From a virus, in the IMG/VR virus record IMGVR_UViG_3300006735_000044, positions 1 through 54,447 of that record: DNA of 54,447 nt, one strand, 5' to 3'. The translations under genes and the position numbers were made by a program. Positions 139-49,737 of the stretch are shown here, in pieces. A model generated the notes under the pieces. That model worked only from the letters and a program-made list of their open reading frames with translations. It was not told where the DNA came from and ran no database searches. Positions within the stretch are counted from its first letter, which is position 1. Each line of letters opens with the position of its first letter.

Positions 139-2439
139 ATGGGTATGACAGATGAGATTACTGAATTAGAAAATTCCTTGAAAGGGATGGATAAGTTATT
201 AGTTCAATCTAGTAAAGATGCTATGGTGTTAAAATCATCATTAAAGGGTATAAACACGTTAGTTAGTGGTAAGAATTATGAGATTATTAGTAGATTCTTG
301 TCAGGAACAGGTGCTTGGAAAGTATTGAATAAAGCAAAAGCAACTGTTCTAACGATGATACAATTAGTTTCTATACAAGAAAGAGCAGCATTACAAGACA
401 ATCTTAGAATGAAAGAAATGGCTAAGATAATCAAAGAAAGAAAAGAACTTCTTAAATTAGAAGCCCAATTTAAAAAAGCCTCTGTAAACATGGATAAAGA
501 GGCAATTGAAAAATTAAAAGAAAAATCAAATGTATTTGCTGCTATCTCTTTAGAGGTTGGGGATGAAAAGGCAATTGCTCAGATATTAAAAAGAATTGGT
601 AAAAGTAAAGGATTATTAGATAAGATATTAGGTAAAGGTAAAGTATCGGGTAAAACCATTGTAGAAGACCCAACAAGTAAAAGCATATTAGAATCAACTT
701 TCCTACAAACTGCGGCACTTACTGCGGGTTTTATGTTAAATCAAAAATTCTTGAAGCAAATGGCTACCTCGTCTACTGAAGTATCCAAGTTTGCAAGTGA
801 ACAAAATGCTAAAATTGCAGAATTAACTAAGGTATTTGGTACGGAAAATAAAGCGTTAAAAGAAGATTTTACCAAAAAAGCAGAATATGAATCTAAACTA
901 TTAGAATATCTAAGTAAAGAAACGGGATATAATCTAACTGATAAAAATATGGTAGGGGGAGGTGCAGGTGAAAAAAGTATTGCGGCAATTCAAGTTACGA
1001 CAGAACAAGCAAAACAAATGCTTGAAGATAATGCAAGATTGTTTGCTAATATATCACTTAATCCGGAAAAATTATTATCTAAAGGGATGGATTATCTTAA
1101 AGAAGTAACAGATTTAGAAGAAGAAAGTTATAAAAATAGAATAGAGGCAATAAAAAAGAATAAAAAAACATTTTCAGCCGCTAATGATTATGTTGATTCA
1201 TTACTAGATAATATAGACCCTACGACAAAAAAGTTTATTTCAGATAAAGAAAGATACAAGAAATTAGCAGATATTGCACCAAGAGAAGGTAGAAGAAATT
1301 ATGAAACGGGTAGATTTCAAAAAGGGGCAGGTAGATTTAGAAAAATAAATCCCGAATTTAAAAAATTAGTAGATGATGCAAAAGCATTACAAGCAACATT
1401 TGATTCTGAAAAATCTAAAAGAAGGGATAAAAGAATATCGGGAATGAAAAGAGCATTTGGTTTTGGTAAAACTGATGAGGAAAAAGAAACAGAGGCTCAA
1501 AAATTTGCTAATAGACGTAAAACATTTAAGAAATTATATCAAAGACCTATACTTAGAATTAGAGAAAGTATTCAAGAAAATGGTGGTGTATTTAGTGCTG
1601 TAAAAGAATGGGCTTTAGATGGTGGTGCTAAATTAGTTGAGTTTACAGGTAAATTATTGATGTTTGCTAAGAAAGCATTTGTAACAATTGGGTTAGCGTT
1701 GTTAACTTTATTCTTATTATATAGAGCATTTAAGAGTGCAGGTGTTAGAGAAAAATTAGGTGAGATTTGGGAACAAACTAAATCCCTATTTACAATGATG
1801 GTATTGCCTTTCTTAGAACTAGTAGCAAGTGGTATAGGAGATATTGTTACAGGATTTCAAGAAGGTAAATTCTTTTTAGTAATAGAAGGGCTATTGAAGA
1901 TTTTAGGTGGTATAGTTATGGCTTCTTTAGCACTATTATCTTTAGCACTTATAGTAGTATTAAAATTAATACACGCAGGTATTATGGGAATTGCGGCTTG
2001 GGTTAAAAAATCTTCAGGTGATACTAAAATGTTAGTTGCAAAGGTTATGTATATTATCGCAGGTATAGCAGTTTTAGCCGCATTTTTCTTTGGTTTACCT
2101 GCGTTAATAGTTGCAGGGATAGCATTAGCAATTGCATATGCGTTTGAAAAATTCTCTTTCTTTGCTGATGGTGGAGTAACAACAGGTGGTTTATCCGTAG
2201 TAGGAGAAAAAGGCCCTGAATTAGTTAAATTACCAACAGGCTCAAGAGTTTATTCTAATGCAGATTCAGGTAAAATGGTAGCGGCTAATGCGGCTAGTTC
2301 AGGAGGCAATACAATTAATGTTCATGTCAATGGTAGAGTTGGTGCTTCTGATACAGAGATACGAGATATAGCAAATAAGGTTGCTAAAGAAATTAATATT
2401 AGAATGAATCAAACAAGTTCAACGGTGAGTATGGTATGA
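139..2439 (+). CDS. Tail tape measure protein
   Basis: Probable tape measure protein that sets tail length and may help deliver DNA through the host envelope. It is about 766 residues: a long helical, lysine- and glutamate-rich N-terminal two thirds, then hydrophobic segments near residues 515-535, 575-620 and 640-680, then the loop FADGGVTTGGLSVVGEKGPE, which is typical of the C-terminal part of many tape measure proteins. An in-frame GTG lies at 130, but the ATG at 139 sits about six bases after GGAAGGTGAT and is preferred. The stop overlaps the next start (ATGA). The membrane segments are usual for this family. The exact identity rests on the motif and position, not on a full alignment. 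Confidence 0.85.
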   Translation: MGMTDEITELENSLKGMDKLLVQSSKDAMVLKSSLKGINTLVSGKNYEIISRFLSGTGAWKVLNKAKATVLTMIQLVSIQERAALQDNLRMKEMAKIIKERKELLKLEAQFKKASVNMDKEAIEKLKEKSNVFAAISLEVGDEKAIAQILKRIGKSKGLLDKILGKGKVSGKTIVEDPTSKSILESTFLQTAALTAGFMLNQKFLKQMATSSTEVSKFASEQNAKIAELTKVFGTENKALKEDFTKKAEYESKLLEYLSKETGYNLTDKNMVGGGAGEKSIAAIQVTTEQAKQMLEDNARLFANISLNPEKLLSKGMDYLKEVTDLEEESYKNRIEAIKKNKKTFSAANDYVDSLLDNIDPTTKKFISDKERYKKLADIAPREGRRNYETGRFQKGAGRFRKINPEFKKLVDDAKALQATFDSEKSKRRDKRISGMKRAFGFGKTDEEKETEAQKFANRRKTFKKLYQRPILRIRESIQENGGVFSAVKEWALDGGAKLVEFTGKLLMFAKKAFVTIGLALLTLFLLYRAFKSAGVREKLGEIWEQTKSLFTMMVLPFLELVASGIGDIVTGFQEGKFFLVIEGLLKILGGIVMASLALLSLALIVVLKLIHAGIMGIAAWVKKSSGDTKMLVAKVMYIIAGIAVLAAFFFGLPALIVAGIALAIAYAFEKFSFFADGGVTTGGLSVVGEKGPELVKLPTGSRVYSNADSGKMVAANAASSGGNTINVHVNGRVGASDTEIRDIANKVAKEINIRMNQTSSTVSMV

Positions 2440-40968: not shown

Positions 40969-41202
40969 TCACTCCTCCTCTGTTTTAGATAAAATTAAAT
41001 TCAACATTGCTTTTTCTACATGCGTAGTAGTAATTTTTCTATCACCACTTTCAGCATATATATTAACAATCTCTAAATTTAGTTCATTTAAACTAAATTG
41101 TATATACTTATCCATAATAGGATAAATATCTGCGCTGATATATGTTCCTGCTCTAAGTCTCTTCTTCAATTCTTTCTTTAGTTTTCTTATTGATATTATC
41201 AT
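40969..41202 (-). CDS. Archaeal-type histone
   Basis: A 77-residue protein with the histone fold at residues about 20-72: the ISADIYPIMDKYIQ first helix, the long helix FSLNELNLEIVNIYAESG, and the diagnostic RKITTTHVEKAMLNL end, which matches the 'RKTIxxxHVxxA' loop and helix of archaeal histones. A basic N-terminal helix (RKLKKELKKRLR) precedes it. It should dimerise and wrap the virus DNA, or replace host chromatin. GGAGAG lies seven bases before the ATG, which overlaps the PC4-like gene by 50 bases. Confidence 0.8.
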   Translation of the reverse strand: MIISIRKLKKELKKRLRAGTYISADIYPIMDKYIQFSLNELNLEIVNIYAESGDRKITTTHVEKAMLNLILSKTEEE

Positions 41203-41395
41203 TTAATGCTCTCCTTAGTGCCTTATTTAGAGACTGGGCTTCGTCTATATTCATTCTAACACCTTTTTTGGTAGGTTTACCATTATCATACCATCGAATA
41301 TCTAATACATCTATATTCCAATAACTACCTGTCACTACAAGTAATTCTGACGTAGCACTTCTTGGTATTCTTACTACGATTCTTTCATTCTTCAT
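41153..41395 (-). CDS. PC4-like single-strand DNA-binding transcription cofactor
   Basis: An 80-residue protein whose central part (VLDIRWYDNGKPTKKGVRMN) matches the core of the PC4/Sub1 p15 domain: a strand with 'vDiR', a turn, and the 'ptkKGi' strand, followed by a helix (EAQSLNKALRRALN). PC4-like proteins form dimers that bind melted or single-strand DNA at promoters and replication sites. The C-terminal 20 residues are highly charged. It sits in front of the histone gene and close to TFB and other transcription genes. Confidence 0.7.
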   Translation of the reverse strand: MKNERIVVRIPRSATSELLVVTGSYWNIDVLDIRWYDNGKPTKKGVRMNIDEAQSLNKALRRALNDNINKKTKERIEEET

Positions 41396-41786: not shown

Positions 41787-42256
41787 TCTCTACCATTCCA
41801 TACTCTATACTTAACTTCATATTCAACTGTTACATCAAAAGGGAATATAGGAAATACTAAGGTAGCATTACCGAATTGTGGTGCATAACCACTATCCCAC
41901 AAGTATGTTCCTTGTTGAATATAACCATTAACATTAAATGTGAAATTATTAAATATTACAGTATTGTTTATGATATCAAAACTCAAATGAGTCAAATTGT
42001 AATGGAAATAATCTAATTCAATTAGACCGTGAGTTGTGTTAAAATCTAACACCACTGTTTCTTGTGTTGAATTATTCACATCATTAATTAAGTATGTAAA
42101 TGAACCATTCAACATAGACCAATCTTTCACACATTCTTCGTCTTCTGCAAACACTTCTTCAGGAGATGGTATAGTACATCCCGCTAACATAAATGTTAGT
42201 AAAAATACTAGTCCATATTCTCTTAATGTTGTCTGTCTTGAATTAAGTAGGTTCAT
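41771..42256 (-). CDS. Glycosylation-rich lipoprotein (161 aa)
   Basis: A 161-residue secreted lipoprotein. Residues 15-26 are hydrophobic (GLVFLLTFMLAGC) and end in a lipobox LAGC with Cys27 as the lipid attachment site. The mature part is beta-rich and carries about eight N-glycosylation sequons between residues 50 and 135 (NGS, NST, NTT, NLT, NNT, NFT, NAT). It should sit outside the host membrane or on the virion surface. A superinfection-exclusion or receptor-masking role is possible; this is inference. It starts at ATG 42,256 in a TGATG junction with the JAMM gene. Confidence 0.7.
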   Translation of the reverse strand: MNLLNSRQTTLREYGLVFLLTFMLAGCTIPSPEEVFAEDEECVKDWSMLNGSFTYLINDVNNSTQETVVLDFNTTHGLIELDYFHYNLTHLSFDIINNTVIFNNFTFNVNGYIQQGTYLWDSGYAPQFGNATLVFPIFPFDVTVEYEVKYRVWNGRECSPQ

Positions 42257-42813
42257 CACTCTTCACCTTCCGTTACAGTGTGCCTACCACTATTGGTCTT
42301 AATAAATGATACGTGCTTACCTATTTCAGTTTTACAATCATAAGCCCACACTTCACCTTGACCTAGAACAATAGCACTATCCAAATTACCTTTCCATGTA
42401 TCAACAGTTCTCCAATCAGTACCACTAAAATATGCTGACATATTAGGGTGAGTATGAATCCAACATTTAATAGGTAATTTCATTGGTTCTTCACTACCAT
42501 ATAACTCATCATCTTGATTTGCAAAAGATACAAAACCCGGTGTTCCAACACTCATGAATAGATTATTATTAGCATCTACTAACACTTGAACTTCTCTAGG
42601 AATATCAAAATACTCAATAGATTGTTTGTATATTTGACTAAGGAATGCTTCTGTACCAAAATCAGGATACACCCATTCCATACTATCAGAACATACTTCC
42701 CATAATTCTTTAATGGGTTTTTTCCATTCGTTATCTTTAACAACATTCTCCATTGTATTCAGATACAATCTATCATTCTTATCATATTCTTCTTCACTAT
42801 TCTTTATATTCAT
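42256..42813 (-). CDS. JAMM/MPN metalloprotease (isopeptidase)
   Basis: A 185-residue protein with a full JAMM zinc motif: HTHP (His120, His122) followed seven residues on by SGTD (Ser130, Asp133), with plausible upstream glutamates. JAMM enzymes cut ubiquitin-like proteins from their targets, or trim their C-terminal extensions. The domain covers about residues 60-175; an N-terminal helical part precedes it. It is three genes downstream of the E1-like gene in the same operon, so the two likely act in one pathway with the ubiquitin-like protein. GGGGTAAT precedes the ATG. Confidence 0.88.
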   Translation of the reverse strand: MNIKNSEEEYDKNDRLYLNTMENVVKDNEWKKPIKELWEVCSDSMEWVYPDFGTEAFLSQIYKQSIEYFDIPREVQVLVDANNNLFMSVGTPGFVSFANQDDELYGSEEPMKLPIKCWIHTHPNMSAYFSGTDWRTVDTWKGNLDSAIVLGQGEVWAYDCKTEIGKHVSFIKTNSGRHTVTEGEE

Positions 42814-43181
42814 TCTATTACCCCTGTTTGTATTAATACTCCAACAACAACTGCGGCAATTAGAATTAATCTAAACACCATTTTATTATTAGTTTTCTTA
42901 ACCTCTGCTATCTTCTCATCTAAAACGTCTTTTACCTTTTCTAGATGTTCTTCCATTTCTTCTTCTTTAACCAAATCTTCATGCATCTCTTCTATATCTG
43001 AATCTATATGCCTTTCTTGTATAGCCTTAGATTTAATTTTAGTTTTTATTTGTGCTAAAGTTCTAATATCAACAAATCGCTCTGCTATATCTTCAACACT
43101 TAAACCCTCATCCAAATAATCACAAAGCATTGCTACTTCGGTTTCATTCCATTTTCCTTTATTTCCTTTACTTTTCTTCAT
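42810..43181 (-). CDS. Myb/SANT-like DNA-binding protein with C-terminal membrane anchor
   Basis: A 123-residue protein with a basic tail, then a helix-turn-helix of the Myb/SANT kind at about 10-55 (KWNETEVAMLCDYL, LSVEDIAERF, RTLAQIKTKI), a charged coiled coil (60-98), and a terminal membrane segment at 101-120 (MVFRLILIAAVVVGVLIQTG). It could tether virus DNA, or a host regulator, to the membrane. ATG 43,181 is preceded by AAGGTGA; an upstream in-frame GTG forms part of that site. It lies just before the JAMM gene. Confidence 0.65.
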   Translation of the reverse strand: MKKSKGNKGKWNETEVAMLCDYLDEGLSVEDIAERFVDIRTLAQIKTKIKSKAIQERHIDSDIEEMHEDLVKEEEMEEHLEKVKDVLDEKIAEVKKTNNKMVFRLILIAAVVVGVLIQTGVIE

Positions 43182-43455
43182 TTTCTTCACCTTTTAATTC
43201 TTTGATTACAATTTTGTTTGTGAGCCTATCATCCTTAAAAAAAGGAATGGGGCTATTTTTAATAGTTATAGTAAATGTTTGACCATTCATCATATGAACC
43301 AACACACTCTTACCTGTATCAGATACAGCAAATATCTTATCTCTTAGAAAACTAGTCATCCCAAACTCCGTAGGGTACTCGTTAGTCCAATCTGATACTA
43401 CATTAACCATATTTACTTCTGATGGTTTAGAAGGTTTCCAGTCTTCTAATCCCAT
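43168..43455 (-). CDS. Hypothetical beta-rich protein (95 aa)
   Basis: A 95-residue protein with a polar start and a beta hairpin region (SVLVHMMNGQTFTITIKN). GGAGGAGTCTGAT precedes ATG 43,455, so the longer frame that overlaps the zinc-finger gene is probably not used. No family is recognised. It lies between the E1-like/zinc-finger pair and the Myb-like gene. Confidence 0.45.
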   Translation of the reverse strand: MGLEDWKPSKPSEVNMVNVVSDWTNEYPTEFGMTSFLRDKIFAVSDTGKSVLVHMMNGQTFTITIKNSPIPFFKDDRLTNKIVIKELKGEENEEK

Positions 43456-43456
43456 A

Positions 43457-43699
43457 TCAGACTCCTCCTTGTTGAGATGCTCTGATACTCTCTTTGATAA
43501 TAGACTCATGATATACTTGATGTCCACCTAAAAACCCTCCTGCATGTCTTTTTGTTCCTATAAACTCTTCACCACAAACATGACAACAAACTCTAACTAT
43601 TTCAGACCTGAGATAAATCCCATCTTTAGAAATAATACTTAATATTTCACCTATCTCCTCATCTGATAATTCTAAGTCGTCATCTACTTTATCACTCAT
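43457..43699 (-). CDS. C2H2 zinc-finger protein with GGV tail (80 aa)
   Basis: An 80-residue protein with an acidic N-terminal helical part and a C2H2 knuckle: Cys39, Cys42 (CCHVCGEEF), then His60 and His64 (GGHQVYHES). The last residues are QQGGV, a di-glycine one residue from the end, in the gene that overlaps the E1-like stop. It may be a DNA-binding adaptor, or a substrate or partner of the E1-like enzyme; the second idea rests only on the tail and position. Confidence 0.55.
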   Translation of the reverse strand: MSDKVDDDLELSDEEIGEILSIISKDGIYLRSEIVRVCCHVCGEEFIGTKRHAGGFLGGHQVYHESIIKESIRASQQGGV

Positions 43700-44271
43700 A
43701 TATTAAACACCATACTTGTTTTTACTTCTTGCTTGTTGAACCATTTCTGAATCCATTGAGCAGCAATTGAAGCAATCACATTATTCATCATATTAACACC
43801 CTTAGCAGAACCATCCCAAGACTGTGCTTGGCACGAAAATGAACCTTCTTCTCCTGTTAACACAGTATCTACTAAATCAGGATTAAGCATGTATGATATT
43901 AGCGTAGCATTTCTACCTTGCGCTCTCAAATCTAACCACTTCACGGTAGCATCTTCACCTGTACCTTGCCTATAAAGCAAGCGTCTTACATCCAAATTAT
44001 CTGCACAACAGATAACTAGGTCATAACCTTTCAATTGTTTTGGTACTAAAACTAAATACGGTTGTGCTTTAACACCACTAAACTGACTACTAATCGCTTC
44101 TGCTTTATTTTCTCCTAAGTGGCTTTCATTATAGTGCTGATAAGTTAAATTCTTTTTCTCTACCTTATCATCATCAAAAACAGTTATGTCATAAATACCT
44201 AACCTTTCTAAATTATGTATTAACATACTACCTATACCACCTGCACCTATTATCATTATCTTTCTTTTCAT
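43696..44271 (-). CDS. E1/ThiF-like adenylating enzyme
   Basis: A 191-residue single-domain E1-like enzyme that activates a ubiquitin-like C-terminus by adenylation. It has the Rossmann loop GAGGIG (9-14), FDDDKVE with Asp33-35 after the second strand, the NLTYQ block (41-45; usually NLNRQ), and Lys56. A late cysteine, Cys147 in GSFSCQAQ, is the likely thioester site. It is shorter than UbaA/MoeB-type enzymes (about 250-270 residues) and has no CxxC zinc pairs or rhodanese domain. It lies two and three genes from the zinc-finger and JAMM genes in one operon. GGAG precedes the ATG. Confidence 0.82.
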   Translation of the reverse strand: MKRKIMIIGAGGIGSMLIHNLERLGIYDITVFDDDKVEKKNLTYQHYNESHLGENKAEAISSQFSGVKAQPYLVLVPKQLKGYDLVICCADNLDVRRLLYRQGTGEDATVKWLDLRAQGRNATLISYMLNPDLVDTVLTGEEGSFSCQAQSWDGSAKGVNMMNNVIASIAAQWIQKWFNKQEVKTSMVFNI

Positions 44272-44272
44272 T

Positions 44273-44509
44273 TTAACTACTCCATTCTATTGTTTCCTTT
44301 TTTGTAAAGAGGGAAACTCTCTTTAATTTATAGCCGTAATCTGTTGCTACTACATATCTCCATATTTTTTTAGGAGATGACTCATAATATTCCATATCAA
44401 CTACCGTTACTTTAACATATCTGCCTTTTAATACAGTATATCCCTTATAACCAATATCATAATTATGAGAATTTCTCCATTTTTTCCAAAACTTTATATC
44501 ATTGACCAT
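44273..44509 (-). CDS. Small beta-rich protein (78 aa)
   Basis: A 78-residue basic protein starting at ATG 44,509 (MVNDIKFWKKWRN), with two beta hairpins (GYTVLKGRYVKVTVVDMEYY and WRYVVATDYG). It lies between the TFB and E1-like genes and its stop nearly touches the E1 start. No family is recognised; the earlier in-frame starts overlap the TFB end. Confidence 0.45.
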   Translation of the reverse strand: MVNDIKFWKKWRNSHNYDIGYKGYTVLKGRYVKVTVVDMEYYESSPKKIWRYVVATDYGYKLKRVSLFTKKETIEWSS

Positions 44510-44513
44510 AAAA

Positions 44514-45416
44514 TTACTTCCTAATTCCATTAATAAAATCATTTAGTGTTAAATAATTTAATTTATTTTTATCCACATTATATAATTGTAAAATCTTTTT
44601 CATATTCTTTCTTAGTGATACTTCAGTAGTACCCACTAGTTTAGCAACTTCTTGTTGTGTATAGTTTTCTCGTCTAAATACAGAGACTAAATAAAAACAT
44701 GCAGACAAAGTTGCTATTGTAAATTGTACACCATGTGCATCTAGTTTTTGGTAAACGTGTTCTGATAATTTACTTACATCCCCAATATATTGAGGATTAG
44801 GTAAATATAATTTTGAACCAACTTCTTGAATCAATCCTTCAATATTCATTTGAGAAAATACCCAAGGCTTACCCAAATGAGTTGCTATCACTCTAGCGTA
44901 TTTTGATATTTCACCTCTAGGTATCTTAGTTACATTAGAATGTTTCTGTACTGTTACTGCAATACCTGCTTCTTTCAATATATAATAAGTTAAACTTGCT
45001 GCTCTATTATCAATAGGTACTGCTCTTAATGCCTGTTTTTTATTTAGTAGATTATAATATTTACTTACTCTACTCTTTAATACGGGCGCTACGTTATAAT
45101 AAGATAAATTCATATTAGATAATTTTAACATCCTCAAGTAAGATTCATTCAATGGATTATTATGTCTTTGAGTGAAGAATAGTTTTCTACCTACAACACC
45201 AAATTTATTGATATCCCCTTTATGAATTGTTGAACCTAAGTCCCAAGATTTGTTAGGTGAACCTGTATAATCTATATTTGATATATTATAATCTACGTTT
45301 CTAATAGTATCTTCAAATATATTTTGGATTAAAACAAGTCCACAATCTAAACAAACTTGTTCACCTAATCTTTCGTCAAACACATTTTTTTCTGATTTAC
45401 ATTCTATACATTTCAT
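44514..45416 (-). CDS. tfb: Transcription factor B (TFIIB-like)
   Basis: A 300-residue TFB. The N-terminal zinc ribbon has CIEC (Cys3, Cys6) and CLDC (Cys22, Cys25), followed by the B-reader/linker region with SPNKSWDLGSTI and HNN, and two cyclin-fold halves (about 110-200 and 205-295). It should recruit host RNA polymerase to TATA-type promoters and may redirect it to virus promoters. It starts after GAGAGGGGTT in an ATGA overlap with the gene upstream. Some N-terminal linker residues differ from cellular TFBs. Confidence 0.92.
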   Translation of the reverse strand: MKCIECKSEKNVFDERLGEQVCLDCGLVLIQNIFEDTIRNVDYNISNIDYTGSPNKSWDLGSTIHKGDINKFGVVGRKLFFTQRHNNPLNESYLRMLKLSNMNLSYYNVAPVLKSRVSKYYNLLNKKQALRAVPIDNRAASLTYYILKEAGIAVTVQKHSNVTKIPRGEISKYARVIATHLGKPWVFSQMNIEGLIQEVGSKLYLPNPQYIGDVSKLSEHVYQKLDAHGVQFTIATLSACFYLVSVFRRENYTQQEVAKLVGTTEVSLRKNMKKILQLYNVDKNKLNYLTLNDFINGIRK

Positions 45417-46642
45417 AAATAACCCCTCTCAGATATTAAATCTAAATTATCAAAATACTCTTTAGGTAGCCTATGATATTCTTCATCAGGTAATCTCATA
45501 GTATTAATTTGTGAACTTGATGTAACATCATTCATGAGGAACATTGCTCTTGCAGCAAATTGGTCGCCTACACTAGAGTTCCTGTGGATGTTATCTATAC
45601 ATACACCAGTTGTCTTACCCAAAACAACAGTACCATCTTTAGGATGTGTTACACTTTCAGCACTCTTAGTGAACTCATTCTTTCTATTTAGAATAAATCT
45701 AGTAGTTTTGACTTTTTGAGTAACAGATGAAGAACCGAGATTCTCCATTAATATCCAATCGCACCTTTGACCTCTAACTATCATTATAGTTCTTAAACCT
45801 TTAAGTTTAAAGACTCTTATTTTATTAGGGAACTTACTTTCTAATTCTGTCAATAACTCTTCGGCTCTCTTCTCAACCAATGACTGTGTTCTATTTTGTT
45901 TTAAGAAAGCATACATTAATTTTGTTTGAGATTTACTAGGTAATTCACCTAATAATTTTCTCCATAAGTTCTCAGGTGAAACTCCCCATTTCTCAGACCG
46001 CTTATGACCATGCCTATGAAAATTAACAAACGAATTTAAATCTTTGATAGCAATATTAGCCCAAACACCATCGGATAATTCTAATGCACATTCCTTATCG
46101 GATATAATTTTTGTTTTGATTCTGACATTATGTTTCACCATATCACCATCCTTACTGTAAAATGAATATGGTGTTCTGTTTTCTACTGAATGCATTACGT
46201 TAGGTGGGAATAATAACAACCTACGAATATACCTATCCATCTTTACACTACTATTTTCAAAACAAGAACGATAAAATATTTTACTTAAATTAGCCATAAT
46301 AATAGATTTATTACCCTTCTCACCATTTAAGAAAAAGTGAGGTTTATTCTTTTGAAACACAATAGTTGAATCTCCATCTTTATACTTAAAAGTAATAATA
46401 GTAGTTAGATTATCATTAGTTGACATAAATAAAAACTTATTTATTGCAGTACTAATACCCGCATAAATAGGGTCTAAACTATTTCTTTTTTCTTTATTAA
46501 GTTCAACAGTTACAGGATATTCCCCAAACCTATTGAGTTTACGCCTATAATCACGCTTAATATCAGTAGTACGGTACAGGAAACTAGTTGTATCATACGT
46601 GTTACTATCATCTGCTCTTGCTATTTTCATCTTAACTTTCAT
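45413..46642 (-). CDS. Large hypothetical protein (409 aa)
   Basis: A 409-residue protein directly upstream of TFB, with ATGA overlaps on both sides. It is alpha/beta, with strands in the first 100 residues (LTTIITFKYKDGDSTIVF), a basic middle (FHRHGHKRSEKWG), a helical stretch around 225-265, and a strand near IRVFKLKGLRTIMIVRGQR. No nuclease, ATPase or membrane motif is seen. The size and place suggest a transcription or early-regulation role, which is inference. Confidence 0.45.
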   Translation of the reverse strand: MKVKMKIARADDSNTYDTTSFLYRTTDIKRDYRRKLNRFGEYPVTVELNKEKRNSLDPIYAGISTAINKFLFMSTNDNLTTIITFKYKDGDSTIVFQKNKPHFFLNGEKGNKSIIMANLSKIFYRSCFENSSVKMDRYIRRLLLFPPNVMHSVENRTPYSFYSKDGDMVKHNVRIKTKIISDKECALELSDGVWANIAIKDLNSFVNFHRHGHKRSEKWGVSPENLWRKLLGELPSKSQTKLMYAFLKQNRTQSLVEKRAEELLTELESKFPNKIRVFKLKGLRTIMIVRGQRCDWILMENLGSSSVTQKVKTTRFILNRKNEFTKSAESVTHPKDGTVVLGKTTGVCIDNIHRNSSVGDQFAARAMFLMNDVTSSSQINTMRLPDEEYHRLPKEYFDNLDLISERGYL

Positions 46643-46914
46643 TCTTCTTCATCCCCAAATAAATACTTATCTCCAATGGTTTGGATTCCTTCAATTTCTA
46701 AATCATTAATGAAGCAATGCATTGCAACCATATCTCTAGGCAACCTACGAAAGTCAACCCAACTCATTGGAGTACCCATAACATTAGGTCTTCTTAGGGA
46801 TGATTCACAATCAGATGTATTATACCGATTGGTATAAGCCCCTGACTCTTTCAATTTCTTTCTATATGCTTTAATTATTTTACTCTTAGGTAAGTTCTCG
46901 TAAATTATCTTCAT
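46639..46914 (-). CDS. Hypothetical protein (91 aa)
   Basis: A 91-residue, mostly helical, basic protein (LPKSKIIKAYRKKLKESGAY at the N-terminus), ending in an acidic tail that overlaps the next start (ATGA). GAGAGG precedes the ATG. It overlaps the upstream helical gene by 29 bases. No family is recognised. Confidence 0.45.
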   Translation of the reverse strand: MKIIYENLPKSKIIKAYRKKLKESGAYTNRYNTSDCESSLRRPNVMGTPMSWVDFRRLPRDMVAMHCFINDLEIEGIQTIGDKYLFGDEEE

Positions 46915-47173
46915 TTATATTCCTCTCTTTATATTTTTTATATTCATGTATTTCTACTATTTTTGTGAGGGCTAAATCCCTCGGCACATTATTGATAGTA
47001 TTCATTGTTCTCAATAGGTTGTGCATAAATGTTAGGGGGGACATATTGCCATCCTCTAACTGTTTAAATCTTACTTTTATGTTTTCTATGACTACTGGAT
47101 TAGAAAATAAACTATATATTTCCTGTTCTATTTCCAAGAACTCTTCCCTGTTTAGTTTTGACCTATATCTCAT
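46886..47173 (-). CDS. Hypothetical helical protein (95 aa)
   Basis: A 95-residue helical, highly charged protein (EEFLEIEQEIYSLFSNPVVI) with no cysteines. It starts in an ATGA overlap with the ribonucleotide reductase stop, so it is probably translated with it. No family is recognised. Confidence 0.45.
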   Translation of the reverse strand: MRYRSKLNREEFLEIEQEIYSLFSNPVVIENIKVRFKQLEDGNMSPLTFMHNLLRTMNTINNVPRDLALTKIVEIHEYKKYKERNINEDNLRELT

Positions 47174-49053
47174 ATTTCACAAACTCCACCCGCACAGGCA
47201 ATCTCTCCTTGCAAGTCAGTATAATCATCATATTCCTTTACATCCTTAAAATCTAAATCAGAAAGTTTACTGAACATTTCATTATATTCAGATTCAGTTA
47301 TTTCTTCAAATGGCGCTTGTTTATAAGAACCATTATCATATGGTAAAACTGCTAGACCATTGTAATAATGTCTATTTAACCACATCCACGCACCTACATC
47401 TTCCCACTCATCTTCACGAATCTGAACAGTTGCAGATACATTATGAGTGTTCAATCCATCTCTATGACCACGTTGAACCCATCCAACAGAGAAACGCTTT
47501 ACACGTTCTAACATATCAATAGCAGATTCATGTCTAGTTATTATATCACCTTTAGGTGCTTTTTGTGGTATAGAAAATACTGCTTCGGTAGCACTAAAGT
47601 AATCATCTTCTATTAATTCAGGAACTTTATCTAATAGATATTGATATACAGGTTCTACCTTATTTACTCTAACTCTTCTATTATAGAATGGAGCATACCA
47701 AGGATGAATACCCGATGAAGTACCTAATACACAACTAGCAGTTCCCGATGGTTTAACACAAGTAACTCTTGCTGCTTTATTTATCCCAAGCAATTCAGCA
47801 ACTCTTTCATTTTCATTCTTTGCAACGATTGCTGCCTGTTCAATATCTAACAAAGTTACCTTATTACTACCTATTCCAGTCATAGACACACCTAAAAGCG
47901 CATCTTTTTCAGTAGTTTTCTGCCAAACTTCTCTTAAATAATGGAAATCTGTATAACCTGCTTGTAAAGTTCCTAAGAAAGCAGCCGCTTTAACTCTCTC
48001 TTCCAAATCTTCTTGAGATAAAACATCAGAAACATTACATTCAGTCAAGTTACAAAACTGATAAGGGCGTAAAGCAATCTCACAACAAGGATTTGTTCCC
48101 CAATCTTTATCATGAGAGAAATATATTCCCGGTTCTCCTGAATTAGATAATCTAATTCTTTCCCATAAATCTTCAAAGAAGCCCTTTTCTATTCTATGTC
48201 TAAGTAAGAATGCTGAGTTATTCGCTCTACCTCTTTGTGGATTCTGTTCATACCACTTACCTGCTTTACAATTAATCATTTCATTATCATCAGCACTAAA
48301 TAAAGATATTAATGCTGCTCGTCTAATGCCACCTGATAAAACTGCATGAGCAATATGACATAATATATCATGACACTCTAAAGGAGTTAGTTGTGTACCT
48401 TCTTCTTTCTGTAATAACATTGTTTCAATTTTAACCAATGCTATTTTTAGTGGTGCAGGACCGGGTGCTTTCCCACCACTAGTTTTTAGTGGCGCACCTT
48501 TAGGTCTAATATCATCATAATCAAAATTAGGTGAAGATGTTCTCATACCAAAGTATGATTCAAAAAGAACTTTAATTGCATCAGCCCAACCTTCAATAGA
48601 ATCATTAATTAATATTCTTCTAAACTTATCAGGATTGGGTTTTCTAATCGTTGGTAGTTGTTCTACATGGTGTCGTTGTACAGAATAACCTACTCCTGTT
48701 CCACCTAATAACAAAAACATAGATTCAGAGAAACACTCTAAAGAATCTATTGGCATATATGCACAATTGTATAATCTGTTTGGTGATAGTTCTATTGGTT
48801 TACCTGCAAATTGAAAAGACCTCATTGATGGAACTACCTTTCTAGTTTTAACATAGTTCTCATATATATTTTCTATCTCTTCAATCAGTTGAGGATTACC
48901 TAGATTAACATATTTTTTAAGATGCATTTGTTTATTTCTTTCACAAATCTCATCCCAAGATTCTCTTCTATTTTCTTCTGTCTTATATTTAGCATACTTC
49001 GTAAATACATTGAACTCTGATAGCACTTTATTTTGTAATTCCATTTCTTTCAT
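47170..49053 (-). CDS. nrdJ: B12-dependent (class II) monomeric ribonucleotide reductase
   Basis: A 627-residue class II reductase that makes deoxynucleotides for virus replication using adenosylcobalamin. The cysteine set matches the Lactobacillus enzyme in spacing: Cys97 (YNCAYMP), Cys323 and Glu325 in NPCCE, Cys334 in FCNLTEC, and the C-terminal pair CAGGVC (Cys620, Cys625). The block PSGTASCVLGTSSGIHPWY is also family-typical. The length fits the monomeric (RTPR-like) type, without the extra domains of the dimeric type. ATG 49,053 follows AAGGTG by seven bases. Cobalamin must come from the host or its environment. Confidence 0.93.
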   Translation of the reverse strand: MKEMELQNKVLSEFNVFTKYAKYKTEENRRESWDEICERNKQMHLKKYVNLGNPQLIEEIENIYENYVKTRKVVPSMRSFQFAGKPIELSPNRLYNCAYMPIDSLECFSESMFLLLGGTGVGYSVQRHHVEQLPTIRKPNPDKFRRILINDSIEGWADAIKVLFESYFGMRTSSPNFDYDDIRPKGAPLKTSGGKAPGPAPLKIALVKIETMLLQKEEGTQLTPLECHDILCHIAHAVLSGGIRRAALISLFSADDNEMINCKAGKWYEQNPQRGRANNSAFLLRHRIEKGFFEDLWERIRLSNSGEPGIYFSHDKDWGTNPCCEIALRPYQFCNLTECNVSDVLSQEDLEERVKAAAFLGTLQAGYTDFHYLREVWQKTTEKDALLGVSMTGIGSNKVTLLDIEQAAIVAKNENERVAELLGINKAARVTCVKPSGTASCVLGTSSGIHPWYAPFYNRRVRVNKVEPVYQYLLDKVPELIEDDYFSATEAVFSIPQKAPKGDIITRHESAIDMLERVKRFSVGWVQRGHRDGLNTHNVSATVQIREDEWEDVGAWMWLNRHYYNGLAVLPYDNGSYKQAPFEEITESEYNEMFSKLSDLDFKDVKEYDDYTDLQGEIACAGGVCEI

Positions 49054-49055
49054 CT

Positions 49056-49436
49056 TTAACACCTTAATTTTTTTCTTTCTACTATTTGGTCAAATGAAGA
49101 GAATGAATGAACATATTCACCATTCTTCTTTACGACCCATTCTCTCTCGACCAAAAAGTTCCAAGATGGGAAGGTAGAAATTACATCAATTCCATATTCT
49201 GAAATTAAATCATCTACGTCTTTGTATTGTTTATTTTTATATTCAATCAGGGTTTCCCCATCACAAATAATAACGGCTTTCATACTCACTGCTAGAACAT
49301 ATCCAACAGGATAAAAGTCGGGCTTCATTAAAGTATAATCTTCATATTTTTTACTATCACGGTAAAGCCAACCTTGTGATTTCAAAAAGACTGGTAATAT
49401 TCCAGTCGGTAATATATTCGCATAATCGCATAACAT
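49056..49436 (-). CDS. Hypothetical protein (126 aa)
   Basis: A 126-residue protein with two beta-rich segments (YVLAVSMKAVIICDGETLIE and FLVEREWVVKKNGEYVHSF) and a helix. GGAGAGG precedes the ATG. It lies between the ribonucleotide reductase gene and the structured spacer after the ubiquitin-like gene. No family is recognised. Confidence 0.45.
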   Translation of the reverse strand: MLCDYANILPTGILPVFLKSQGWLYRDSKKYEDYTLMKPDFYPVGYVLAVSMKAVIICDGETLIEYKNKQYKDVDDLISEYGIDVISTFPSWNFLVEREWVVKKNGEYVHSFSSFDQIVERKKLRC

Positions 49437-49460
49437 AGGATTCCTCTCCTAAGAAGGTAT

Positions 49461-49496
49461 GAGGGGCAGCAAGTTGTGAGGGAATGCTGCCACCTC
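49461..49496. promoter_or_regulatory. Stable hairpin in spacer (11 bp stem, one bulge)
   Basis: GAGG-GGCAGCA (49,461-49,471) can pair with TGCTGCC-A-CCTC (49,485-49,496), an 11 bp GC-rich stem with one bulged base and a 13-base loop. It stands out in an AT-rich genome and lies in the only spacer of any size near the ubiquitin-like gene, upstream of a leftward gene. It may be an RNA element such as a leader, attenuator or processing site. Confidence 0.55.
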
Positions 49497-49508
49497 AATT
49501 GTAGAGAC

Positions 49509-49531
49509 ATAAATACCTAAATGGTATTTAT
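49509..49531. terminator. Hairpin at the stop codon of the ubiquitin-like gene
   Basis: A 9 bp stem, ATAAATACC paired with GGTATTTAT around loop TAAAT, overlaps the TAA of the ubiquitin-like gene. It could stop or stabilise the message of that gene and may make it a separate, highly expressed transcript. There is no clear T-run, so terminator is only one option. Confidence 0.45.
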
Positions 49532-49737
49532 TGGTTGCCTCCACCCTGCATCCCCGGCATTAGTAGTACATCTGCTACTGAATCCCAGTCTGTTGCTGTA
49601 ATTGTTTCTTTAGGTACTTGAATCCCATCAAGATATATCCAATGTGTTGGATGGTCTTGTATTTGGTCAAGCATATCATCTATTGTCATATTTTCCATTA
49701 CCGTATGTCCGGTTTCATTTGCTATTGTTAATTTCAT
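49528..49737 (-). CDS. Ubiquitin-like beta-grasp protein with GGG-NQ C-terminus
   Basis: A 69-residue protein with the beta-grasp order: strands KLTIANE and HTVMEN joined by a TG turn, a helix (MTIDDMLDQIQDH), strand HWIYLDGIQV, a short turn, then VADVLLMPGMQGGG. It ends QGGGNQ. A flexible glycine tail ending two residues past a triple glycine is the hallmark of a ubiquitin-like or MoaD/ThiS-type precursor that needs trimming. The virus also encodes an E1-like enzyme and a JAMM protease. It is preceded by an AT-rich stretch with a TATA-like box and has its own spacer, so it may be transcribed separately. Confidence 0.75.
   Translation of the reverse strand: MKLTIANETGHTVMENMTIDDMLDQIQDHPTHWIYLDGIQVPKETITATDWDSVADVLLMPGMQGGGNQ

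Follow-up and report, generated by a model that had tools for sequence, protein, structure and literature searches.

We analyzed the DNA of a marine archaeal virus, IMG/VR record IMGVR_UViG_3300006735_000044, positions 1-54,447, to which we refer as the window. The following genes are of relevance for the locus studied here.

42256..42813, minus strand: JAMM/MPN+ metalloprotease of 185 aa, with HTHPNMSAYFSGTD and Glu74
43457..43699, minus strand: C2H2-type zinc-finger protein (Cys39, Cys42, His60, His64), overlapping the E1 start
43696..44271, minus strand: E1-like adenylating enzyme of the ThiF family, 191 aa, with an invariant Cys147
44514..45416, minus strand: TFB (TFIIB-like) transcription factor, an associated gene that in the viruses invariably separates the E2 candidate from E1
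45413..46642, minus strand: candidate E2-like conjugating enzyme of 409 aa, with Cys348 in GVCIDN and a C-terminal part that is predicted to be UBC-like (about residues 250-375)
49528..49737, minus strand: ubiquitin-like modifier (Ubl) of 69 aa, ending with ...MPGMQGGGNQ; the invariant Gly-Gly are residues 65-66

A first-pass annotation had proposed a virus-borne modification system composed of Ubl, E1 and JAMM, and coordinates and strand of its three open reading frames are confirmed. The system genes are part of a leftward replication/transcription module that also holds PolB (in two pieces), RFC, an ATP ligase and TFB. The tail genes, including the tape measure, form a separate rightward module. 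Such gene content and opposed morphogenesis and replication modules were described for the Magrovirales, which have Poseidoniales as hosts (PMC10768690), and the gene layout of the window resembles this published description, such that its placement there is tentative. Ubl and JAB domains are also known from phage tail clusters (Iyer et al. 2006, PMC1779556), i.e., the role of Ubl and JAMM could be confined to the processing of a structural assembly factor, similar to lambda tail protein I and the JAB domain in tail protein K. Given the gene position within the leftward module (PolB, RFC, ligase, TFB) and away from the tail genes, and given the presence of a conserved E1, we consider such a tail-assembly role highly improbable.

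Ubl, the 409-aa protein, TFB, E1 and JAMM are encoded on one strand and in a fixed order in 212/212 related viral loci that span the region, i.e., the proposed trio is found in relatives as well. This single gene order together with dN/dS values of 0.05-0.31 for Ubl, E1 and JAMM (when compared to three relatives) places the gene set far beyond chance. The zinc-finger gene was found in 37 of about 66 relatives and is either accessory or a chance neighbor.

The Ubl model shows a confident beta-grasp fold (pLDDT 88.7, order beta-beta-alpha-beta-beta-alpha-beta), as had been expected from the sequence. In a Foldseek search against the PDB, the first 48 matches are ubiquitin, NEDD8, SUMO or variants thereof; the best match has E=3.1e-3 and probability 0.99, while the TM-scores are only about 0.45. 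The family-library search gave no match for the Ubl, and its alignment profile found no meaningful match in the PDB. Gly65-Gly66 are present in all 114 distinct viral Ubls and are followed by 0-4 variable tail residues. A GG with a short variable tail is the pattern of ubiquitin-type precursors. Since 91 of the 108 distinct viral Ubls lack lysine within their body, the viral product is, judging from the sequences, probably a single tag and not a chain.

The E1 matches the Pfam ThiF family above the cut-off (E=2.6e-21). Its GxGGIGS nucleotide site is conserved, with Gly9/11/12/14, Asp33, Asp35, Lys56 and Asp91 being invariant or nearly so. Cys147 is a Cys in 130/130 distinct viral homologues and aligns with the Cys of host E1s (context SCQ) and PRTRC E1s. 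The Arg of the NLxRQ motif is missing from the E1; its position is taken by Tyr44 in most viral sequences, by His in those of the host, and by Gly in the crAss-type ones. Cap2 and a ThiF-fold bacterial E1 are among the top solved-structure matches. When using PADLOC, only the generic E1-E2 models match the E1, and Ubl, JAMM and the 409-aa protein remain without match. The RaFAH study (PMC8276007) noted that a MoeB/ThiF gene is prevalent among archaeal viruses.

For the JAMM protein, the match to Pfam Prok-JAB (E=7.7e-4) is below the curated cut-off. On the other hand, the HxHx7SxxD motif, which the first-pass annotation described as complete, is so in 137/137 distinct viral homologues. Glu74, His120, His122, Ser130 and Asp133 are conserved, with Glu74 present in 97% of the viral homologues. 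It had been suggested that the protease trims the terminal NQ from the Ubl or removes the Ubl from targets. We find JAMM in 14/15 distinct loci with a tail-less Ubl that ends with GG, where the 15th is a short locus. That is, JAMM is kept even where the Ubl has no tail to be trimmed, such that trimming does not stand as its sole role and JAMM likely also takes the Ubl off its targets, as far as sequence comparison can tell.

The main rival explanation is a MoaD/ThiS/CysO-like sulfur carrier, i.e., the E1 adenylates the Ubl, a thiocarboxylate is formed, and the JAMM releases the product like Mec+ does from CysO-cysteine. This is in accordance with the ThiF and MoeB models that match the viral E1, the small Ubl with its GG, the known occurrence of JAMM alongside CysO, as well as the cysH gene of some magroviruses (PMC10160649). 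We regard it as quite unlikely nonetheless, since Pfam scans, which covered most genes of the window other than the two giant ORFs of the tail region, found neither MoaE nor ThiG, and no rhodanese or cysteine synthase either. Furthermore, sulfur carriage needs neither a variable tail after the GG nor an always-linked single-Cys protein, nor the Ubl-Ubl tandems and Ubl-Ubl-E1 fusions of the host relatives discussed below.

This single-Cys protein is the 409-aa protein, which is universal in relatives and has Cys348 as its single invariant Cys. The family motif is GPIC[IV][DN] (consensus GPICIDN), with GPIC[IV]D being dominant among 136 distinct sequences, and the context of Cys348 fits the E2 catalytic G-x-[LIVP]-C-[LIVM]. 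The order of elements within the model is UBC-like (helix, four strands, Cys, helix). Using Foldseek against the PDB, UBE2S is the top match but weak (E=0.1, probability 0.57), and eight E2s are among the top 33. A domain-restricted hhalign comparison to E2s aligns Cys348 with their catalytic Cys (P=0.035, compared to 0.31 for the reversed decoy). This correct register is suggestive only, and sequence comparison gives no significance to the E2 identity, with an unrelated viral family reaching P=0.014. The hhalign comparisons of the viral families with eukaryotic E2s, PRTRC_B, PRTRC_C and crAss proteins provided nothing significant, with unrelated families performing equally. The alignment profile of the 409-aa protein found no match in the PDB, the family-library searches gave none either, and neither UQ_con nor Prok-E2_B was detected within the window. 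Classical E2s have an HPN motif upstream of the Cys, which is absent from the alignment of the 409-aa protein and also from PRTRC_B-type E2s. We conclude that the 409-aa protein is probably the E2 of the viral system. The earlier statement that no E2 is visible is thus probably wrong, with the candidate at 45413-46642 being located inside the very interval for which it was made. No E3 and no substrate was identified for the viral system.

SAMPs, UbaA and JAMM1 provide an archaeal precedent of Ubl tagging with an E1-like enzyme and a JAMM. Following this example, E1 and Ubl could modify targets directly and JAMM could remove the tag, while the 409-aa protein would be a partner, e.g., a substrate adaptor or TFB-linked regulator. 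The E2 homology that is not significant by sequence allows for such E2-independent tagging, and the UbaA model matches the E1, if only weakly. On the other hand, the 409-aa protein is universally linked, its one invariant Cys lies within an E2-like motif, E2s lead its weak fold search, and its host relative is found directly upstream of Ubl-E1-JAMM, such that we deem the E2-independent reading improbable.

This host relative is part of a larger set. Scanning genomes with the E1, we located homologues of all four proteins in Poseidoniales (MGII), contiguous as E2-Ubl-E1-JAMM. According to hhalign, the E2 candidates of host and virus are homologues (97.8%, 6.8e-13), with the host protein showing an ICID motif. 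The host Ubls end with GG and a short tail, and the JAMM site is present. Ubl and JAMM co-occur among 244 genomes, of which 101 have both and 121 have neither. Beside Ubl-Ubl-E1 and E1-JAMM fusions, we observe polyubiquitin-like di/tri-Ubl ORFs. That is, the Poseidoniales genes are arranged in compact operons or fused, they include di/tri-Ubl genes, and their Ubls carry lysine (15/15 sampled host Ubl units), whereas the viral genes are spread over about 7.5 kb and include a single, mostly lysine-free Ubl. A genome scan with the viral Ubl patterns found nothing, because these patterns are virus-specific.

In the E1 tree, the host E1s form one clade separate from the viral E1s, which leaves a recent capture from the host unsupported; the long crAss branch is placed unreliably. 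A TFB-like gene is found near the host system in several Poseidoniales genomes. An origin of the viral TFB from this operon-linked host TFB is not supported, since among the host proteins it matches best with another TFB, which is full-length and encoded at a different place in the genome. The viral system is best read as an old relative of the cellular Poseidoniales cascade. Sporadic ubiquitin-type domains were reported for one MGII single-cell genome (PMC4327156). The literature found on ubiquitin in MGII/Poseidoniales does not describe the E2-Ubl-E1-JAMM family, i.e., it is to this extent previously undescribed, where an earlier mention in PMC11706807 or PMC5434244 is possible. The magrovirus literature found makes no mention of such a tagging system.

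The homologous host cascade also allows for a counter-system only, in which JAMM strips host tags and the viral Ubl is a lysine-poor decoy or terminator of putative host chains. The lysine depletion of the viral Ubls compared to the host units fits this idea. A decoy, however, needs no conserved E1 and E2-like protein of its own, both under purifying selection and with invariant cysteines, and we thus rate a pure counter-system as unlikely.

Concerning named systems, SAMP/UbaA/JAMM1 had been pointed to as a known pathway of such a kind, but was rejected as nearest kin because of its scores. The haloarchaeal set resembles the viral one in its archaeal Ubl, E1-like enzyme and JAMM, but the UbaA model scores only 38.1 bits (cut-off 450), and the haloarchaeal genes are not known to form one linked set with an E2-like protein. 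The place of nearest kin is taken by the Poseidoniales family and, among named systems, by PRTRC. The latter (type 6d, Iyer et al. 2006) covers the same four functions with the PRTRC_C Ubl, the PRTRC_B Prok-E2_D, the PRTRC_A JAB and the PRTRC ThiF. All plasmid matches of the viral E1 (9/9) are PRTRC ThiF, the PRTRC E1 Cys aligns with the viral Cys, and the PRTRC E2-like protein shows a P..N...VC motif. Still, the viral proteins stay far below the NCBIfam PRTRC cut-offs (57.5 bits compared to 144.75 for ThiF, 14.5 compared to 101.8 for A), Ubl and E2 candidate show no detectable similarity to PRTRC C or B (no B or C match), and a TFB is found where PRTRC has a ParB-like partner. The viral set contains the PRTRC-type combination of Ubl, E1, JAB and E2-like genes only if the 409-aa protein is an E2.

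The bacterial Ubl defense systems Bil/Bub and CBASS Cap2-Cap3 have the logic of E1, E2-like protein and JAMM in common with the viral set, which differs by its separate genes and shows no CD-NTase or effector. In crAss001-type phages (cluster gp75-gp79), a replication-module E1 (gp76) adjoins a JAMM (gp77), while hosts are bacterial and proteins longer; the Ubl and E2 roles of gp79 and gp78, respectively, are suggested by eye only, and these proteins are not significantly similar to the viral Ubl and E2 candidate. A ubiquitin-type cascade with a JAMM protease is encoded by the Ub-E2-E1-RING-Rpn11 operon of the archaeon Candidatus Caldiarchaeum subterraneum (PMC5654768, PMC4327156). Its sequences are eukaryote-like and include a RING E3, whereas the viral E2 candidate and Ubl show no sequence match to eukaryotic families.

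Taken together, the initially proposed virus-borne Ubl/E1/JAMM system is strongly supported by the synteny of 212 loci, the GG, the JAMM site, the E1 Cys, as well as the host homologues and their fusions. We consider it likely that the virus encodes a cascade for both conjugation and deconjugation of a ubiquitin-like protein. From the computed genes, folds or motifs, synteny, invariant residues, host homologues and fusions, we infer its enzymatic steps along with E2 identity and targets. The JAMM would cut the short variable tail of the Ubl such that Gly-Gly is exposed. The E1 would adenylate the C-terminal glycine and then form a thioester on Cys147, from which the Ubl would be handed to Cys348 of the E2-like protein. 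The latter, alone or with an adaptor, would join the Ubl to target amines, and JAMM would strip it from the targets again. Since the genes are located in the replication/transcription module along with TFB, we would expect the targets rather among proteins of replication, transcription or host takeover than among virion parts.

A more specific scenario is possible but doubtful, namely that viruses of the magrovirus type possess a full E1-E2-Ubl-JAMM cascade, which descended from and competes with the polyubiquitin-type system of Poseidoniales. Here, the lysine-less viral Ubl would cap or replace host chains on chosen targets, possibly TFB-linked transcription proteins.

If the virus-borne cascade proposed above is real, a group of archaea that is abundant in the ocean receives a ubiquitin-type conjugation pathway from these viruses, and Poseidoniales own an undescribed pathway with polyubiquitin-like genes. 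For the pre-eukaryote origin of ubiquitin signaling, this would contribute a further lineage to consider, and it would provide biochemistry with a minimal four-protein cascade. It would also suggest that archaea and their viruses contest protein tagging, which may thus be part of this virus-host contest.

From gene content and the location of homologues, we infer a Poseidoniales (MGII) host for the virus. The window, a 54447-base fragment of a virus record, encodes the following set, where the Ubl, E1 and JAMM frames and their minus-strand location are as stated by the first-pass annotation:

49528-49737, minus strand: 69-aa ubiquitin-like protein (Ubl)
45413-46642, minus strand: 409-aa protein, E2 candidate (E2c)
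44514-45416, minus strand: TFIIB-like protein (TFB)
43696-44271, minus strand: E1 of the ThiF family
42256-42813, minus strand: JAMM protease

The E1 is a clear ThiF-family member (Pfam, E=2.6e-21), JAMM matches Pfam Prok-JAB below threshold, and the best solved-structure matches of JAMM, which are weak, are AMSH-type proteases. The Ubl had no match in the family libraries searched. Structure prediction, proposed earlier as a check of its fold, bears out the ubiquitin-like assignment: for the confident AlphaFold model (input alignment of 54 rows; order strand-strand-helix-strand-strand-helix-strand, the last residues, 65-69, being floppy), Foldseek PDB matches 1-48 are ubiquitin, NEDD8, SUMO and variants, the best with E=3.1e-3, probability 0.99 and a TM of about 0.45.

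We searched viral contigs with each protein, which gave 100 loci at first and 264 in total later. Ubl is encoded in at least 220 viral stretches, and all five genes keep order and strand in 212/212 loci holding the complete set, a number that includes overlapping pieces of the same contigs and is not that of independent viruses. The trio of Ubl, E1 and JAMM, whose recurrence in relatives had been left to be checked, is thus found together in fixed order, and TFB constantly lies between E2c and E1. Since other genes around the five come and go between loci, the fixed set is more than mere collinearity. Distinct viral sequences number 114 (Ubl), 130 (E1) and 137 (JAMM); the dN/dS of these genes versus three relatives is 0.05-0.31. 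Further observations concern:

47170-49062 of the window: B12-dependent ribonucleotide reductase that separates Ubl from the other genes of the set; 39 of about 58 relatives have it
40969-41202 of the window: 77-aa protein that resembles a histone fold by eye; just 6 of about 64 relatives have it
41153-41395 of the window: PC4-like coactivator, shared by 62 of about 64 relatives (Pfam PC4 match at 2.2e-4, short of the cut-off)
L265:3414-7163: viral E2c-E1-JAMM set on a 12-kb contig of a Maricaulis genome bin, probably a misbinned virus

All 114 distinct viral Ubls carry GG near the C-terminus, followed by unconserved residues (0/1/2/3/4 of them in 15/42/54/2/1 sequences), i.e., what reads as the ubiquitin-type precursor pattern of GG plus a short variable tail. 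The JAMM motif is complete in all 137 distinct sequences. Of the 15 distinct loci in which nothing follows the GG of Ubl, 14 keep it, and the remaining locus is too short to judge. JAMM is therefore not solely for Ubl maturation, such that the trimming of the terminal NQ suggested earlier may stand as one role only. The viral E1 retains the nucleotide-binding residues and lacks the arginine of NLxRQ; its one invariant cysteine, Cys147, aligns with cysteines of the E1s from the hosts and from the PRTRC system.

Where no E2 had been visible before, the set now holds a candidate. The E2c gene is present in all related loci covering that region, and Cys348 is its single invariant cysteine, within G-P-I-C-[IV]-[DN]-N. 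The C-terminal part of the model (pLDDT 86.7) consists of a helix (252-270), strands (275-280, 284-290, 294-300, 311-318), a strand ending at the cysteine and a helix (358-370), which in this prediction is the element order of UBC domains. Foldseek PDB lists UBE2S first and E2s as 8 of the top 33 matches, with weak scores (E=0.1, probability 0.57). No sequence method was significant for E2 identity; hhalign against E2s places Cys348 on the catalytic cysteine, and it shows the viral E2 candidate to be a homologue of the host one (97.8%, 6.8e-13). Taking everything together, with the host operons counted in, we consider E2c a probable E2-like protein.

The E1 family search of cellular genomes led to Poseidoniales and other MGII bins, with these arrangements in the retrieved loci (L-numbers):

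L281, L291, L308: contiguous E2-like, Ubl, E1, JAMM, in that order
L385: contiguous E2-E2-Ubl-E1-JAMM
L386:7180-8421; L389:5789-7063: Ubl-Ubl-E1 fusions
L382:5643-6932; L383:3629-4861; L387:6587-7786: E1-JAMM fusions
L350:1279-2106; L351:991-1704; L349 about 1313-1774 (minus-strand frame): tandem di-/tri-Ubl ORFs, each unit GG-terminal
L266:9181-9420; L383:4861-5094; L384:7562-7801; L386:9038-9283: conserved 77-81 aa protein, located after JAMM in many host loci

Given these fusions, the Ubl, E1 and JAMM activities belong to one pathway. The scanned genes showed no partner enzyme for sulfur carriage, which together with the Ubl tandems and fusions makes such a role of the three proteins less likely. 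The two- or three-unit ORFs are apparently undescribed polyubiquitin-like genes of Euryarchaeota. Read by eye, L281 is flanked by enolase-like and aminotransferase-like genes, and a radical-SAM gene recurs next to E1-JAMM in L266, L277, L386 and L389; from such flanks the cassette's setting looks chromosomal, with the contamination risk of genome bins. Among 244 genomes of the order, Ubl occurs in 109, JAMM in 115 and E2-like genes in 89, although viral contigs placed in the bins may account for some matches. Ubl is accompanied by JAMM in 101 genomes, and 121 have neither gene (Fisher p=1.6e-42, ignoring kinship and genome incompleteness). A Thalassarchaeum contig, possibly viral or cellular, has an expanded version of the set (L327:872-8203), in which E1, TFB and an AAA+ ATPase are joined by three E2-like proteins and two Ubls.

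Host and viral lineages are separate in the E1 tree; therefore, transfer in either direction was not recent. Some host genomes also have divergent TFB-like genes close to the cassette, but the viral TFB is more similar to the full-length host TFB located elsewhere in the genome than to these.

Of the named systems, PRTRC (classed as type 6d in Iyer et al. 2006, PMC1779556) comes nearest: all 9 plasmid matches of the viral E1 are PRTRC ThiF, and PRTRC B and C are E2-like and ubiquitin-like families. Since the viral proteins fall below PRTRC cut-offs, we regard the set as working like PRTRC but do not file it there. Membership in SAMP/UbaA, Bil and CBASS failed on tests of the viral proteins. 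RaFAH (PMC8276007) counts ThiF among the genes that archaeal viruses often carry, with ubiquitination as a guess; our literature search, incomplete for several key papers, found no description of a cascade in these viruses and no earlier one of the Poseidoniales system. In crAss001-type and Flavobacterium phages, E1 adjoins JAMM (crAss001 gp75-gp79, L178:6583-11805; also L101, L102, L179). A B12-dependent ribonucleotide reductase likewise lies near these genes in crAss001, gp79 is Ubl-like by eye and gp78 has an E2-like HSH...C-G-x-GP motif by eye; a second phage-borne cascade may exist.

Lysine makes up 8.2% of residues across the leftward genes of the window, yet 91 of the 108 distinct cores of viral Ubls have none beyond the start region. 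In a hand-picked sample of 15 host Ubl units, each has one to four. Because most viral cores lack lysine, the viral Ubl is likely a tag that is not extended via lysines. Location argues against a role in tail assembly: the tape-measure-like gene is in the rightward module, while PolB, RFC, ligase, ERCC4-type nuclease and TFB are leftward. Genes, Ubl fold, motifs, synteny, selection, host homologues and fusions were computed here; for protein tagging, we propose that JAMM would mature Ubl, E1 would activate it and pass it as a thioester to the E2 candidate, and JAMM would also deconjugate Ubl, which would be joined to targets during the replication/transcription phase.
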